The notes under the pieces were generated by a model, which did no database searches, was not told the origin of the DNA, and was given only the letters and a program-made list of their open reading frames with translations. Shown here piece after piece: positions 773-6,100 of a stretch of 64,000 nucleotides of DNA. The stretch lies in the NCBI RefSeq assembly GCF_000011385.1, contig NC_005125.1:1116001-1180000 (forward strand), written 5' to 3'. This DNA is from Gloeobacter violaceus PCC 7421 (GTDB lineage Bacteria; Cyanobacteriota; Cyanobacteriia; Gloeobacterales; Gloeobacteraceae). Every line of letters begins with the position of its first letter. Position 1 is the first letter of the stretch. The translations under genes and the position numbers were made by a program.

Positions 773-2020
773 ATGCGCCGCTGTCTGCTGGTGTTGCTGG
801 TATGGCTGTGGCCGTGGTCGGCGGTAGCTCAGACTTCGTTGAAATTTGACCTGGACGGCGATGGTCAGGCTGAGACGATCGTCCTGGCGGGTAGCGAATT
901 GCGCGTGCGCACCCAGGGTAGGAGCGAGATCCGCATGACGCTCGCCCCTTCGGCCCGGGCGGTCGAGACAGTGCCCCTCTCGGGCCGGATGGCACTGCTT
1001 GGGGTAGTCTTCGAAGGGGCCGGCAGTCGCTGCTACGCGTTTTTTCGCTACCGCACCGGCAATCTTGCGGCGGTGCCGGTGGAGGTTGGCGAGGACGATT
1101 TTGCCGATCGGCGCATCTGTGCCACAGACCAGATGCAGGTGCGCTGGACGGATCTGAACGCCGACGGCAGCTCAGAACTGATTGTCGAAGAACGGCTCGG
1201 CCAGCCCAAGCGCGCCTTGCGCCGCCGCGTCTACCGCCACGCCGAGGGCAGCTGGAACGCCGCACCGCTGCTGTCGGGGCTCTCGGTGGACGGAGTGCCG
1301 ATTTTGCCCCAGATGGTCGGTTCTTACTATCGCGCCGAGGCGGGCGCCGCCCTCGAAAATTTGCAGGACTTGCAGGAACTGCGCACCAGTCCGGCCTTGC
1401 AGGTCGCTTTGCCGGTGGGCGGCGGGCCATATCAGATAACTTTGCGCACCCCGGGGGCGGAGGCCGGTGTGGTCGTCACCGGCGCCCAGCGCTCGGTGGA
1501 CCTGGCGCGCGGCGAGCAGGTGCTTACTTTGAGTGTCGCGGTCGGTAGCCGGACCGGCCGCCTCATCTACGACTCCGCCGCCGATTTTGCCGATCCGCCC
1601 TTGTTGTTGGTGGGCCTCGGCCGCGACCTCGACGGCATCTACCGGCCCGCGCCCTACGCTCCCCAGTGGCCTACCCTCGAAGCCTATCTGGCCCAGGGGG
1701 TGCTCATCGGCCTCTGGAACCCGCTGGGTAACGTCGGGTTGGTGCTGCGCGACAGCCTGCGCATCCAGGCGGGAAGCAGCCCGAACGGGGTGGTGCTCTC
1801 TTTGCGTCCCGCAAATAACTACAGCGTCGATCTGACGGCGGCGGTGAGCGCCCCTTACGATCTGGCGCTGGTCTCAACCGGAGGGCCGTCCTGGCTTGTG
1901 GATCTGCGCGGGGCGGATTTTTTTGCCCTCGCCCCCGCCCGCTGCAACGGCGAAGGCCGTCCGACCTGCGCCCCGACCGCCAACCCGGTACTCTACCGCC
2001 GCCGCGACGCCCCTTCGTAG
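773..2020 (+). CDS. Secreted protein with FG-GAP/VCBS-like calcium-loop motifs, function unknown
   Basis: The ATG at 773 is chosen inside a longer open frame because it gives a clear signal peptide (MRRCLLVLLVWLWPWSAVAQ) and starts 7 nt after ribH. The mature part has two aspartate-rich loops, FDLDGDGQAE just after the signal and DLNADGSSELIVEE near residue 130, typical of FG-GAP/VCBS blades. The rest of the 415 residues matches nothing I recognise. It is probably periplasmic or exported and may share a transcript with ribH, though the functions look unrelated. Confidence 0.7.
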   Translation: MRRCLLVLLVWLWPWSAVAQTSLKFDLDGDGQAETIVLAGSELRVRTQGRSEIRMTLAPSARAVETVPLSGRMALLGVVFEGAGSRCYAFFRYRTGNLAAVPVEVGEDDFADRRICATDQMQVRWTDLNADGSSELIVEERLGQPKRALRRRVYRHAEGSWNAAPLLSGLSVDGVPILPQMVGSYYRAEAGAALENLQDLQELRTSPALQVALPVGGGPYQITLRTPGAEAGVVVTGAQRSVDLARGEQVLTLSVAVGSRTGRLIYDSAADFADPPLLLVGLGRDLDGIYRPAPYAPQWPTLEAYLAQGVLIGLWNPLGNVGLVLRDSLRIQAGSSPNGVVLSLRPANNYSVDLTAAVSAPYDLALVSTGGPSWLVDLRGADFFALAPARCNGEGRPTCAPTANPVLYRRRDAPS

Positions 2021-2058
2021 CAGAAGTTGGTACGATAAAAAAGCGCAATTTTAAGGAT

Positions 2059-2271
2059 ATGGCCGTGGTCACCCCCAGCACCACCAAGACCCTCGCGGAC
2101 TGGACGCCCCAAGAAGTGGCAGAGCTGGCCCGTCGCCTCGAAAACGACGATTACGAGCACGCCTTCGACGCCCTCGCCGACTGGCAAGTGCTCAAGGCCC
2201 TGCAGTATCGTCGTCCCCAACTGGTCGATGCCTACGTGCATCTGCTCGAACTCGAAGAGGACGAATCGTAA
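2059..2271 (+). CDS. Small conserved cyanobacterial protein (DUF2555-like)
   Basis: A 70-residue acidic helical protein with [25 protein letters not shown], then a tryptophan-containing helix and [10 protein letters not shown]. From memory this resembles the cyanobacterial DUF2555 family, whose function is unknown. A good ribosome site (taagga at 2052-2057) lies just before the ATG. The stop is 4 nt before the next gene, so the two are probably cotranscribed. Confidence 0.7.
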
Positions 2272-2275
2272 CCCC

Positions 2276-3436
2276 ATGGCCAAACATCGCTTTCTGGCGG
2301 GCAAAAAGATCGACCCCCAGCCGATTGGGGCGGGCATCTCGGTGAGTGCCCTCATCGACAACACGTTTTTGGCTTACAACGCCGGCCGGCTGCGCGAGGC
2401 GGCCCGGCTTTTAGTCGAGCGCATGCTGCGTCCGGGGGTGACTGTAGGCGTGACTCTGAGCGGCGCGCTCACGCCCACGGGATTGGGTATGGCGGCGATT
2501 ATTCCGCTCATGGAAGCGGGGTTTATCGATTGGATCATCTCCACGGGCGCCAATCTTTACCACGACACCCACCACGGCATCGGCCTCGATTTGCGCCGCG
2601 GCCGGGCCGATATTTCCGACGTGGTCCTGCGCGAAGAGGGCGTGGTGCGCATCTACGACATCTTCTTCGACTACGACGTCTTGCTGTCGACCGACCGCTT
2701 CTTTCGCGAAATCTTTAAAGCTCCCGAGTTTCAAGCCGCCATGGGCACGGCCGAATTTCACTACCTGGCGGGCAAGTACATCGCTGAGCGCGAGCGGCAG
2801 TTGGGCCTGGAGAATAAATCGCTGCTTGCCGCGGCTTATCGTCTCGGGGTGCCCATCTACACCTCCAGTCCCGGGGATTCTTCGATCGGCATGAACATCG
2901 CGGCGATGGCCCTCGACGGCAAAGGTCCGCGCCTCGATGTCTCACTCGACGTCAACGAGACCGCGGCCATTGTGCTGGACGCCAAGCGCTCCGGGGGTGA
3001 GAGCGGGGTCTGGATTCTCGGGGGCGGTTCACCCAAGAACTTCATGCTCCAGACCGAACCGCAGATCCAAGAAGTCCTGGGCATTCAAGAAAAGGGGCAC
3101 GACTACTTTTTGCAGGTGACCGACGCGCGGCCCGATACTGGCGGTCTGTCGGGGGCTACCCCCTCCGAGGCGGTCTCCTGGGGCAAAGTGGATCCCGACC
3201 GGCTGCCGGACACGGTGGTCTGCTACGTCGATTCGACGATTGCTCTGCCGCTACTGACCGCCTACGCCTTGGATAACGCTGAGTCCCGCCCGCTCAAGCG
3301 CCTCTACGACCGCCGGGGCGAAGTGATGGCCAAGCTCAAAGCCGAATACGAGGCGGCCCAGGCGGCTGGGGGAAGAGATCACAATGTGGGCGAACCGGCT
3401 CCCGAGCACATATCCTCGCAGGCCGCCGGCCGTTAG
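2276..3436 (+). CDS. Deoxyhypusine-synthase-like protein (bacterial DHS/homospermidine-synthase family)
   Basis: Homologues of eukaryotic deoxyhypusine synthase occur in cyanobacteria although bacteria have no eIF5A; they probably make or use a polyamine such as homospermidine, by NAD-dependent cleavage of spermidine. The ATG at 2276 starts [11 protein letters not shown], 386 residues, close to family length. The motif SWGKVDPD contains Lys304, which corresponds to the catalytic lysine of human DHS in SWGK. The NAD-site stretches [12 protein letters not shown] and LGGGSPKNF are present. The C-terminal 25 residues look disordered. Substrate is inferred, not shown. Confidence 0.85.
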
Positions 3437-3565
3437 GTTTGTAAGCTGGGAAGGTAAAACCTTGGTTTGCTAGTGCTCATCTCCCAGTGTTCAGGGTAAG
3501 CACCTAGTAAATAGGAGTACGATAGTGTTCGAGGTTGTATTGAAATAACCTGCTTGAGGAATATC

Positions 3566-4573
3566 ATGATAGGCCCCGAACTTCTTAATACTCTACTTAG
3601 TATTCTGCAGAGTCTTGGCACTACTCTGATCGCTTTCTTATTTAGATATTACTTGAACGAATTGAGTGACAATCGCACCTTAAGCAGGCTCCGTACAACT
3701 GGAGTGATAACGATCCGTAGCACAAAGCGTGATGATGCCGAAAAGTCTAAGCGTCGCACTCAACAGATCGTTGCAGTGCTATTTACTGCTGTTCATGTTA
3801 CTCTGTCATCCTTGTTGCTTTTCCTCGTTGCCTCTATAAGTATCAGTCCTTTACTATTTGCACTCTCTATTGTGAGCATATTCATCTTTGCTCTAACCAT
3901 CAATGACGTTTGGACGAGGGCATTCGATTCCGCAGCGAGATTTAAACCGCAAGCGGAAATCGAGCTTACTTCGGATGTCGTCGCAATCAAAGACCAGATT
4001 AAGTCGATTATGATGCAGTTAAGAGCTTCATTGTTCTGGGATGATGGAGAAACACTCGGATACAAGATGCCTGGAGGTCTTCTCCGCTCTGAGAGAATGC
4101 TTGTATTCAAGATCACAAACAGTAAAAACTTACTTTTGGAGGTGTGTGGCTGCAAAATTCTAGGAAGCAGCAAAGAATTTAAGGGGCCTAGCGATGGTTC
4201 ATTCCTTGAAGATGCTTTGAATGTACAAAGTTTTATCGATCTCTTCTACGCTAGCAGTGTTCTTGCACAGGATGAATCGAAGTATTTGCCTATTAGCCCG
4301 GCAAGCAAAGGGTTGCATCCGTATGCGAACAATCTCAGTAGCTTGGACGAAAGTAGCAGTTCTGAACTGAACTGGAGCGAATTGGGTAACCGAGAAGTGT
4401 CTGTAGTGAAAAGGCACGGTAGAGTAGCAGGCTTTTATCTTCCTGTAAACACTGCTACCAAAGAGGAGATCCGGCAGGCTCATTTACAATTTGAGCAAGC
4501 ATTAGAGCAAGTTTTGAAGGAAAGTAACCTTACCGAAGACGAACTGAACAAATTACTGGATCTCTCGAGTTGA
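3566..4573 (+). CDS. Three-helix membrane protein of unknown function, partner of a PIN nuclease
   Basis: The start is set at ATG 3566, with tgagga at 3555-3560 as ribosome site, rather than an upstream in-frame TTG at 3554. The 335 residues have hydrophobic segments at about 7-29, 69-91 and 94-113, separated by a basic loop (RSTKRDDAEKSKRR), then a soluble C-terminal domain of about 220 residues without recognised motifs. The base composition is clearly AT-richer than flanking genes and codon use differs, suggesting acquisition. The stop is 6 nt before the PIN-domain gene, so the two form a pair. No function assigned. Confidence 0.7.
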   Translation: MIGPELLNTLLSILQSLGTTLIAFLFRYYLNELSDNRTLSRLRTTGVITIRSTKRDDAEKSKRRTQQIVAVLFTAVHVTLSSLLLFLVASISISPLLFALSIVSIFIFALTINDVWTRAFDSAARFKPQAEIELTSDVVAIKDQIKSIMMQLRASLFWDDGETLGYKMPGGLLRSERMLVFKITNSKNLLLEVCGCKILGSSKEFKGPSDGSFLEDALNVQSFIDLFYASSVLAQDESKYLPISPASKGLHPYANNLSSLDESSSSELNWSELGNREVSVVKRHGRVAGFYLPVNTATKEEIRQAHLQFEQALEQVLKESNLTEDELNKLLDLSS

Positions 4574-4579
4574 TCCGCT

Positions 4580-5017
4580 GTGCTCTTAGTGATCGATGCG
4601 AACATTCTGGTCGGTGAATCCCTACGAAAGCGCGGACAGGAACTCTTTTCTAACCCTGCACTCGAAATATTTGCAACCCAGAAAGTCGTAGAAGAATACG
4701 AATACGAGCTGGCAAAGCGCATGGAAGCAATGGTCCGAAAGGGCAATCAGAACTTGCAGAGTGCACAAGCTCTACGCGCCGCAGCCATCCAGTGCATCGA
4801 GAAGAATATTCAGCCAGTTCCTGAGCCCATATATCTCTCCAATAAAATGCAGGCCTTGCTGCGCATCCCCCGTGATCCTCAGGACTGGCCCACGGTTGCC
4901 TTGGCCTTGGTCCTGGAGGCCGGAATATGGACTGCTGATGGAGATTTTTTGGGGTGTGGACTGCCAACTTGGACAACAGAAACCTTGTCGGCATACTTGG
5001 CTAGCAATACCTCGTAA
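4580..5017 (+). CDS. PIN-domain protein, probable ribonuclease
   Basis: A 145-residue protein beginning at a GTG with VIDANILVG, the PIN-domain strand carrying the first metal-binding aspartate (Asp6). It continues with an acidic VVEEYEYEL helix near residue 40, Asp102 in PRDPQDWPTVALAL and Asp120/Asp122 in TADGDF, which fits the usual set of three or four acidic residues. PIN proteins are Mg-dependent RNases and often toxins. The expected small DNA-binding antitoxin is absent; its only partner is the membrane protein 6 nt upstream. AT-richer than its surroundings. Confidence 0.8.
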   Translation: MLLVIDANILVGESLRKRGQELFSNPALEIFATQKVVEEYEYELAKRMEAMVRKGNQNLQSAQALRAAAIQCIEKNIQPVPEPIYLSNKMQALLRIPRDPQDWPTVALALVLEAGIWTADGDFLGCGLPTWTTETLSAYLASNTS

Positions 5018-5071
5018 TGCTTGAAAGTTGTACCATTAAATCCTAGGCATTCGCACCGGTTGCCACGAGCT

Positions 5072-6100
5072 CTAATTTGCACTCAATACCGGCTTCGCTT
5101 CCAGACGCTCGATGGCCTCGTTCAGCAGCCTTTCTCCCTCGGGTACAGTCTCAATGCACATCAGTTGGGCGCGCAAAGCCGCCGCTCCGGGAAAGTCGCG
5201 CACGTACCAGCCCATGTGCTTGCGCGCCCGGCGTACCCCCGGCGCTCCGAGATAGTCAAAAAGCAAGTGGAGATGGACACAGGCCATCTCCAGGCGCGCG
5301 CGGGGTGTCGGATCGGGTAGTCGCTCGCCGGTGCGCAAATAGTGATCGATCTGACCCACCAAGTGCGGAGCCCCCATCGTGCCGCGCGCGCACATGACGC
5401 CGTCCGCTCCGGTCAACTCCAGACAGCGAATCGCCGCGTCGATTGAGAAGATGTCGCCGTTGGCGATGACTGGGATGGCCAGTTGCGCTTTGACCCGGGC
5501 TATCCACTCCCAGCGGGCGGTGCCTTCGAAACTCTGGGCGCGGGTGCGGGCGTGGACCGTGAGCATCTGGGCGCCGCTTTCTTGCATCAGGCGCGCAAAT
5601 TCGAGGATATTGATCTCCCCGTCGCTCCAGCCCAGGCGCGTCTTGACGGTGACCGGCAGGCTTACCGCCGCCGCGACTACGGCGACGATTTTGGCCGCGG
5701 TGGCCGGATCGCGCAGGAGCGAGGAGCCGCCGCCGTTTTTGGTGATCTTGTTGACCGGGCAACCCATGTTGATGTCGATCACATCGGCACCCTGGGCCTC
5801 GGCGACGCGCGCCGCCTCCGCCAGAAAGTCGGGGCGGCAATCGAACAGCTGGATGCCGATGGGCGTCTCGCCCGGCGCGATGTCCATGATCTGGGGCAGC
5901 GAGCGGCTGTAGTGCAGCCCCGAAGCGCTCACCATCTCGGTGTACAACAGCGAGTGCGGCGCATAGCGGCGCACCAGTTGCCGAAACGCCTTGTCGGTCA
6001 CCCCGGCCAGGGGCGATTGGAGCACGCGGCTGGCGAAGCGGTGCGAACCGATGGTGAGGGGTGAAGCGAGGCGTGCCCGGTGGGTGGCGGACAGTTCCAT
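5072..6100 (-). CDS. dusB: tRNA-dihydrouridine synthase
   Basis: A flavoenzyme reducing specific uridines of tRNA to dihydrouridine. The 342 residues form a TIM barrel: SPLAGVTDKAFR at the start, NMGCPVNKITKNGGGSSLLR with the active-site cysteine, VTVKTRLGW with the conserved lysine, VHARTR, and NGDIFS plus GVMCARGTMG at the phosphate-binding end. The sequence style is DusB-like, but the exact tRNA position is not determinable here, so the symbol is tentative. It is convergent with the PIN gene, and the next minus-strand gene upstream is 11 nt away. Confidence 0.9.
   Translation of the reverse strand: MELSATHRARLASPLTIGSHRFASRVLQSPLAGVTDKAFRQLVRRYAPHSLLYTEMVSASGLHYSRSLPQIMDIAPGETPIGIQLFDCRPDFLAEAARVAEAQGADVIDINMGCPVNKITKNGGGSSLLRDPATAAKIVAVVAAAVSLPVTVKTRLGWSDGEINILEFARLMQESGAQMLTVHARTRAQSFEGTARWEWIARVKAQLAIPVIANGDIFSIDAAIRCLELTGADGVMCARGTMGAPHLVGQIDHYLRTGERLPDPTPRARLEMACVHLHLLFDYLGAPGVRRARKHMGWYVRDFPGAAALRAQLMCIETVPEGERLLNEAIERLEAKPVLSAN

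Follow-up and report, generated by a model that had tools for sequence, protein, structure and literature searches.

The genome of Gloeobacter violaceus PCC 7421 contains a PIN nuclease gene directly behind a gene for a membrane protein, and the question raised by this locus is whether such a protein can be the partner of a PIN toxin. We analyzed a stretch of 64,000 nt around the pair (contig NC_005125.1, positions 1,116,001 to 1,180,000 of the forward strand), which is called the window below and supplies all coordinates. We propose that the two genes form a type II toxin-antitoxin module with a PIN_2 toxin, in which the antitoxin has turned into an integral membrane protein; the probability of this reading is put at roughly 0.7. 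The features of the locus are as follows.

3437..5095, no strand: insert; the close relative G003 lacks it and has a Uma2 gene in the corresponding slot
3566..4573, plus strand: putative membrane-anchored antitoxin gene, 335 aa, ATG at 3566 (ORF call, hydropathy, C-terminal homology to PIN_2 antitoxins)
3572..3901, plus strand: predicted membrane region with a weak helix (residues about 3-32), a Lys/Arg-rich loop and two strong helices (about 68-112) (hydropathy)
3935..4261, plus strand: predicted soluble domain, KA1-like fold, beta-alpha-beta4-alpha (residues about 124-232) (AlphaFold2 model, structure alignment)
4388..4570, plus strand: candidate antitoxin part (residues 275-335) with a hairpin remnant of Phd-like type (280-293) and a conserved tail (299-334) (HMM matches)
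4580..5017, plus strand: PIN_2 toxin gene, 145 aa, GTG at 4580 (PF10130 match, alignment A4)

Gene organization, insertion site and neighborhood

The original prediction described a PIN gene with a gene for a 335-residue membrane protein 6 nt upstream, and both open reading frames were confirmed. An alternative TTG start at 3554 would extend the membrane protein to 339 aa. A second species of the genus, G002, possesses a diverged pair with identical gene order and the same 6-nt gap; thus, the layout of type II modules, in which the partner gene lies directly upstream of the toxin gene and nearly touches it, was found in both species. Both genes are indeed richer in AT than their flanks, with a GC content of 43% in the membrane-protein gene and 52% in the PIN gene compared with 63% and 65% for the genes on either side (61% in the window). 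Promoter-like and terminator-like sites between 3400 and 5120 were not more numerous than in shuffled sequences.

The base composition had been read as a sign of mobility, and a comparison with the close relative G003 supports this view. The blastn matches to its contig (L137) cover positions 2001-3436 of the window with 94% identity and 5096-5949 with 92% identity, with no match in between. The deoxyhypusine-synthase family gene and the Dus gene of G003 have the same order as in the window, the matches end at 3436 and 5096, and the slot is filled by a Uma2 gene (PF05685, E 3.4e-39; L137:868-1455, minus strand). This position, with the deoxyhypusine-synthase-like gene on one side and the Dus gene on the other, thus appears to be an exchange site between close species, and the AT-rich island corresponds, judging from these alignments, to a slot that holds different genes in different species. 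No repeats were found at the insert ends. The pair of G002 sits elsewhere, adjoining a stretch that is conserved in the window's genome (G000), G001 and G003. The left neighbor itself (2276-3436) is, in a bacterium, a member of the deoxyhypusine-synthase family (PF01916, E 2.9e-67); such a gene was not found in G002 at E 1e-50 and is present at E <= 1e-50 in 8 of the 11 genomes searched, own genome included.

A role of the pair in defense, proposed as another option, found no support. Nine neighboring genes were tested: those for lumazine synthase, DUF2555, deoxyhypusine synthase, Dus, YbjQ, argininosuccinate lyase, glutamine synthetase and a deaminase, and one gene of unknown function; they are thus housekeeping or unknown. 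PADLOC gave a single match among them, of the deaminase to a dCTPase model, and matched neither the membrane protein nor the PIN protein. The pair is not located in a defense island.

PIN_2 toxin

The PIN protein matches the Pfam family PIN_2 (PF10130) over positions 1-132 of the 133-position profile with an E-value of 1.9e-41 and a score of 141.9 bits (cut-off 22.4). It possesses the acidic residues D6, E39, D99, D120 and D122, which we take to be the active-site residues of the PIN domain; D6, D99, D120 and D122 are identical in all six proteins of alignment A4, and E39 is Glu in five of them and Asp in one. By sequence the toxin thus appears intact. It has no membrane region (maximum hydropathy 1.33), is 46% identical to the PIN protein of G002, and groups with PIN_2 proteins whose antitoxins are ordinary. 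A search of the PDB sequences with the PIN profile A4 gave no credible match, and thus no relative with a known structure turned up for this PIN group.

PIN_2 genes are present in 51 of 386 cyanobacterial genomes at E <= 0.001. Relatives of the PIN gene were further found on 13 of 72,556 plasmid records, on three of which an antitoxin-tail match lies directly upstream, and one viral contig carries a PIN gene with a small antitoxin. The same genus also has a decayed copy of PIN_2, interrupted by two in-frame stops (L008:1501-1824, contig 92 of G001).

Antitoxin tail of the membrane protein

Residues 276-334 of the membrane protein match an ORF located directly before a PIN_2 gene; such an ORF is present at another place of the same genome and also in G001. 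When a profile made from both membrane proteins was compared with 386 cyanobacterial genomes, 11 genomes matched at E <= 0.01. The five strong matches outside the own genome (E-values of 6.6e-12 to 5.3e-7) all fall into columns 284-346 and lie in frames of 84-120 aa. Three of them (G341, G176 and G111) directly precede a PIN_2 match, and two have no intact PIN_2 gene beside them, the one in G226 being followed by a cut-short PIN start and the one in G168 lying on a contig without a listed PIN_2 match. A weak match in G152 (E 0.0092) covers the tail, in an 89-aa frame, and was better matched in the tail search described below. Other weak matches were dismissed, namely that in G057 (E 0.0034), by translation a response-regulator/EAL-like protein, and those in G091, G100 and G175 (E 0.002-0.004), which cover membrane columns only.

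An HMM of 11 related antitoxins gave 56.3 bits for residues 275-334 of the window protein and 16.9 bits for the G002 protein, compared with 5.7 bits for the best of 2000 shuffles. With a general tail HMM the window protein scored 28.3 bits and the two best of 5000 shuffles 14.1 and 12.8 bits; the G002 protein reached 11.6 bits, which is below both of these shuffles. An HMM of the antitoxin head matched the window protein only at positions 28-41, the hairpin (10.5 bits, best shuffle 7.0), and therefore the first strand and helix of the Phd-like front are missing. In Phd-type proteins it is this strand and this helix that touch DNA. The N-terminal DNA-binding half of the Phd/YefM family (PF02604) was detected in the window protein neither by Pfam nor by the head HMM.

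To put this tail into the context of its family, we used a pattern search with six PIN proteins among species genomes, which returned 278 relatives, and examined every one of the best 80. An antitoxin-type ORF (median length 91 aa) lies directly upstream in 76 of these best 80 loci, which are partly non-independent (the 76 antitoxins have 75 different C-termini, and L082 represents G001, a genome of the window's own genus, with an identical PIN protein). Among the four loci without an assigned antitoxin, L088 and L112 are partial PIN matches, L103 is partial with an antitoxin broken by stops, and at L094 no antitoxin was found. The hairpin pattern typical of Phd-type antitoxins was found in 68 of the 76 upstream ORFs. 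The label Phd-like is taken here from this motif and from the fold of Phd-type antitoxins; when two of the small antitoxins were scanned with PF02604, one matched with E 0.028 and 14.6 bits, under the cut-off of 29.8, and the other had no match.

The remaining eight antitoxins, sorted by eye, have other fronts (L060, L062, L063, L064, L078, L079, L099 and L102). With a tail HMM built from the tails of the 68 and of three antitoxins of the window's genus, these eight score 28-54 bits, versus 14.1 bits for the best of 5000 shuffles. One of the other-front antitoxins has a RelB-like front (PF25734, E 1.2e-16). Since the fronts vary, 68 being Phd-like and eight of other kinds, and the tail stays, front-swapping with retention of the tail is a habit of the PIN_2 antitoxin family.

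The antitoxins of L060, L062, L063, L064, L078, L099 and L102 share the tail and an unusual front with the motif IPF-x-(L/V)-L; those of L062, L078, L099 and L102 matched no Pfam family above the cut-off. Four loci of Okeania (L066, L072, L076 and L080) encode antitoxins of 116-119 aa in which the tail motif, by eye, is tandemly doubled before the PIN gene.

None of the 76 antitoxins has a clear membrane region by hydropathy. The highest values are 1.63 for L125, whose start is probably over-extended, and 1.52 for L078, compared with 2.38 and 2.58 for the two membrane proteins. The locus therefore agrees with the pairs of PIN_2 toxin and small Phd-like antitoxin in the toxin family, the antitoxin-first order, the touching or nearly touching genes and the C-terminal tail, and differs from them in the antitoxin itself: the usual one is short and without a membrane region, whereas here, judging by sequence, a membrane region and a soluble domain take the place of its N-terminal half. 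The partner of the toxin thus ends, as far as homology tells, in the tail shared by PIN_2 antitoxins. The idea of a toxin-antitoxin pair is supported by precisely this homology between the C-terminus of the membrane protein and the small antitoxins of its toxin's own family.

Membrane region and soluble domain

Kyte-Doolittle hydropathy in 19-residue windows predicts two clear membrane helices in the window protein, peaking at 2.28 and 2.38 in windows that begin at residues 68 and 85/91; near the N-terminus there is a weak peak of 1.53. The peaks of the G002 relative are 1.69, 2.58 and 1.65. Of the three helices named originally, two hold and the N-terminal one is weak and only possible; we consider it doubtful because the soluble-type antitoxin L078 also has a window of 1.52. 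The helices also appear in a low-confidence model of the whole protein (pLDDT 44.2), which was left out of the structure searches. Membrane tethering of the pair, as proposed originally, is thus supported at the level of a prediction from hydropathy.

The loop after the first helix (residues 33-66) contains 10 Lys/Arg versus 4 Asp/Glu residues, and that of the G002 protein 4 versus 2. We used the positive-inside rule for topology. Because this loop is positive, the C-terminal tail would be cytoplasmic with either two or three helices.

The soluble domain was modelled alone from two sequences with AlphaFold2 (mean pLDDT 66.6, best blocks 77-88). KA1-type domains of AMPK and related kinases rank best against this model, with a VIA-align Z-score of 11.0 and 2.2 A over 92 residues for the yeast AMPK regulatory fragment (chain 3t4n_A); the list also contains the BamC N-terminal domain and PR-10/START-like domains. 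KA1 domains bind acidic lipids. The match of the model is a resemblance of fold and would not by itself indicate a function. Sequence searches with the membrane protein gave no Pfam family at E-values up to 10, no match in PADLOC and PHROGs, and a single NCBIfam match below the cut-off; the profile of the two membrane proteins (A3) had no credible match among the PDB sequences, the best being glycerol kinase with E 0.18.

The membrane proteins of the window and G002 are 31% identical, their membrane modules about 30%, and their pairwise match covers residues 14-248 (E 5e-27) and does not reach the tail. Over 289 aligned codons of the membrane-protein gene, the identity at the first, second and third codon positions is 0.49/0.57/0.29, a pattern that bears the mark of constrained coding sequence. 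The soluble domain taken separately is 34% identical between the two species, with codon-position values of 0.48/0.61/0.24.

This constraint bears on the question of what the membrane part does. The module could be an ordinary one, whose membrane part merely localizes the complex to the membrane or represents a neutral fusion without sensing, and we give this possibility somewhat less than an even chance. The lack of a defense neighborhood agrees with it, as does the low identity of the two membrane modules, to which no third could be added; the soluble domain, with its clear codon constraint, counts against it because a mere anchor needs no such constraint.

Distribution and history of the membrane form

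A search of 388 genomes of the class, including four from the window's genus, detected the membrane module in no genome other than G000 and G002. The profile A3 matched 16 of the 388; full-length matches in G000 and G002 follow from its construction, since these two genomes supplied its sequences, and the 14 remaining genomes (E 6.6e-4 to 0.046, 13-20 bits) have partial profile coverage and were taken as chance. Co-occurrence of the two families, which had been suggested as a check, holds in one direction: the membrane module is accompanied by a PIN gene in both of its cases, whereas the PIN family is regularly found without the membrane module.

The tail search in 386 cyanobacterial genomes detected 17 places below E 1e-5, of which 16 lie in frames of 39-162 aa; the 17th is the window's own, in a 352-aa frame, the window tail being a query row. 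Nine more places have E 0.0018-0.0084, and the six of them that fall in frames of over 280 aa were taken as chance. Peptide patterns of the membrane module hit 104 stretches in the species genomes, a scan that may not cover the window's near relatives, and 68 stretches in viral contigs, with no relative in either set; they hit nothing in phages, and three plasmid records with tails only.

A tree of the PIN proteins was built with 76 rows, of which 70 come from the 80 loci and six are additional. Outside the tree are L073, L099, L101, L102 and L114, where the PIN frame is cut short, and further L088, L112, L103 and L094, the loci without an assigned antitoxin, and L090. The two membrane-partnered toxins fall into one group of 12 (support 89/94, not starred) and are not sisters. 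The starred branches of this tree force two origins of the membrane partner; a single clade was not rejected (p-AU 0.187) in a 25-row tree hand-chosen from the 76.

The history of the locus might also be that of an accident, in which a membrane gene of unrelated origin became joined to the remnant of an antitoxin, leaving a pair without toxin-antitoxin activity. We consider this improbable: despite identities of 31% (membrane protein) and 46% (PIN), both genes are open in both species, with identical order and the same 6-nt gap, under codon-position constraint and with the acidic residues of the PIN protein kept. The observations that speak for a decayed fusion are the rarity of the membrane form, the decayed PIN_2 copy in G001 and the weak tail of the G002 protein.

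Proposed mechanism and comparison with known systems

In the proposed PIN_2 toxin-antitoxin module, the tail would be the toxin-binding part, as suggested by its being the shared part and by analogy. The cytoplasmic tail would bind and block the PIN nuclease and so keep the inactive complex on the inner side of the cell membrane. Phd-like antitoxins bind DNA with the half that this protein lacks, and the usual kind of autoregulation is therefore presumably closed to the pair. Release of the toxin would be tied to the fate of the membrane protein, either its turnover or a change in the membrane, and the freed PIN protein would then act as a ribonuclease, like toxins of the VapC type. This has a bearing on the open question of the toxin trigger, which here would have to act at the membrane.

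It can further be speculated that the antitoxin is a membrane-embedded sensor, whose membrane region and KA1-like domain monitor the membrane and free the PIN nuclease on disturbance, although we regard this extension as unlikely. The signals watched might be membrane charge, membrane integrity or the entry of an invader, and such a membrane signal would replace the protease-driven release of a soluble antitoxin. If true, this would to our knowledge be the first type II system whose antitoxin is itself a membrane sensor.

An exchange of roles is very improbable: the membrane protein would be the harmful partner (e.g. a membrane-damaging effector) controlled by the PIN protein, for instance by cutting its mRNA, and although membrane-acting toxins exist in other toxin-antitoxin systems according to the available part of PMC10440598, here the antitoxin tail is part of the membrane protein, and the PIN protein falls among PIN_2 proteins having ordinary antitoxins. 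Mere chance neighborhood was rejected because the membrane protein ends in an antitoxin tail and the pair recurs with the same gap.

Toxin-antitoxin pairs that act at the membrane include SpoIISAB of Bacillus, whose membrane protein is the toxin, countered by a small, soluble antitoxin, whereas in the window pair the membrane protein is the antitoxin. Membrane parts have so far been unexpected in type II systems. The available part of a 2009 survey (PMC2701414) lists PHD-PIN pairs, reports no type II system with a membrane component, and sets aside three pairs of a membrane protein and an Xre repressor on the ground that no membrane-containing type II system was known. The nearest published report, as far as the available part of the source goes, locates the helix in the toxin: a paper of 2025 presents the toxin ToxM, which has a transmembrane part, as the first possible membrane-associated type II complex (PMC11980606). 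ToxM-ToxR and the window pair have in common a type II complex predicted at the membrane. However, ToxM is described there as a BECR-fold toxin fused to a transmembrane domain, with a small RHH or HTH protein as antitoxin, whereas in the window pair the toxin is a PIN_2 protein without a membrane region and the membrane part belongs to the antitoxin. In the Panacea systems, as presented in the available part of PMC10440598, the PanA antitoxins likewise have exchangeable domains, and for one of these, the Panacea domain, a sensor role was proposed; unlike in the window pair, the transmembrane parts there belong to the toxins. No membrane-embedded type II antitoxin was found in the literature searched (phrases, titles and abstract starts, with subscription journals thinly covered). 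What appears new here is the homology of the C-terminal approximately 60 residues of a membrane protein to the short PIN_2 antitoxins; an antitoxin whose front has been swapped for a membrane module would make the tail the portable part.
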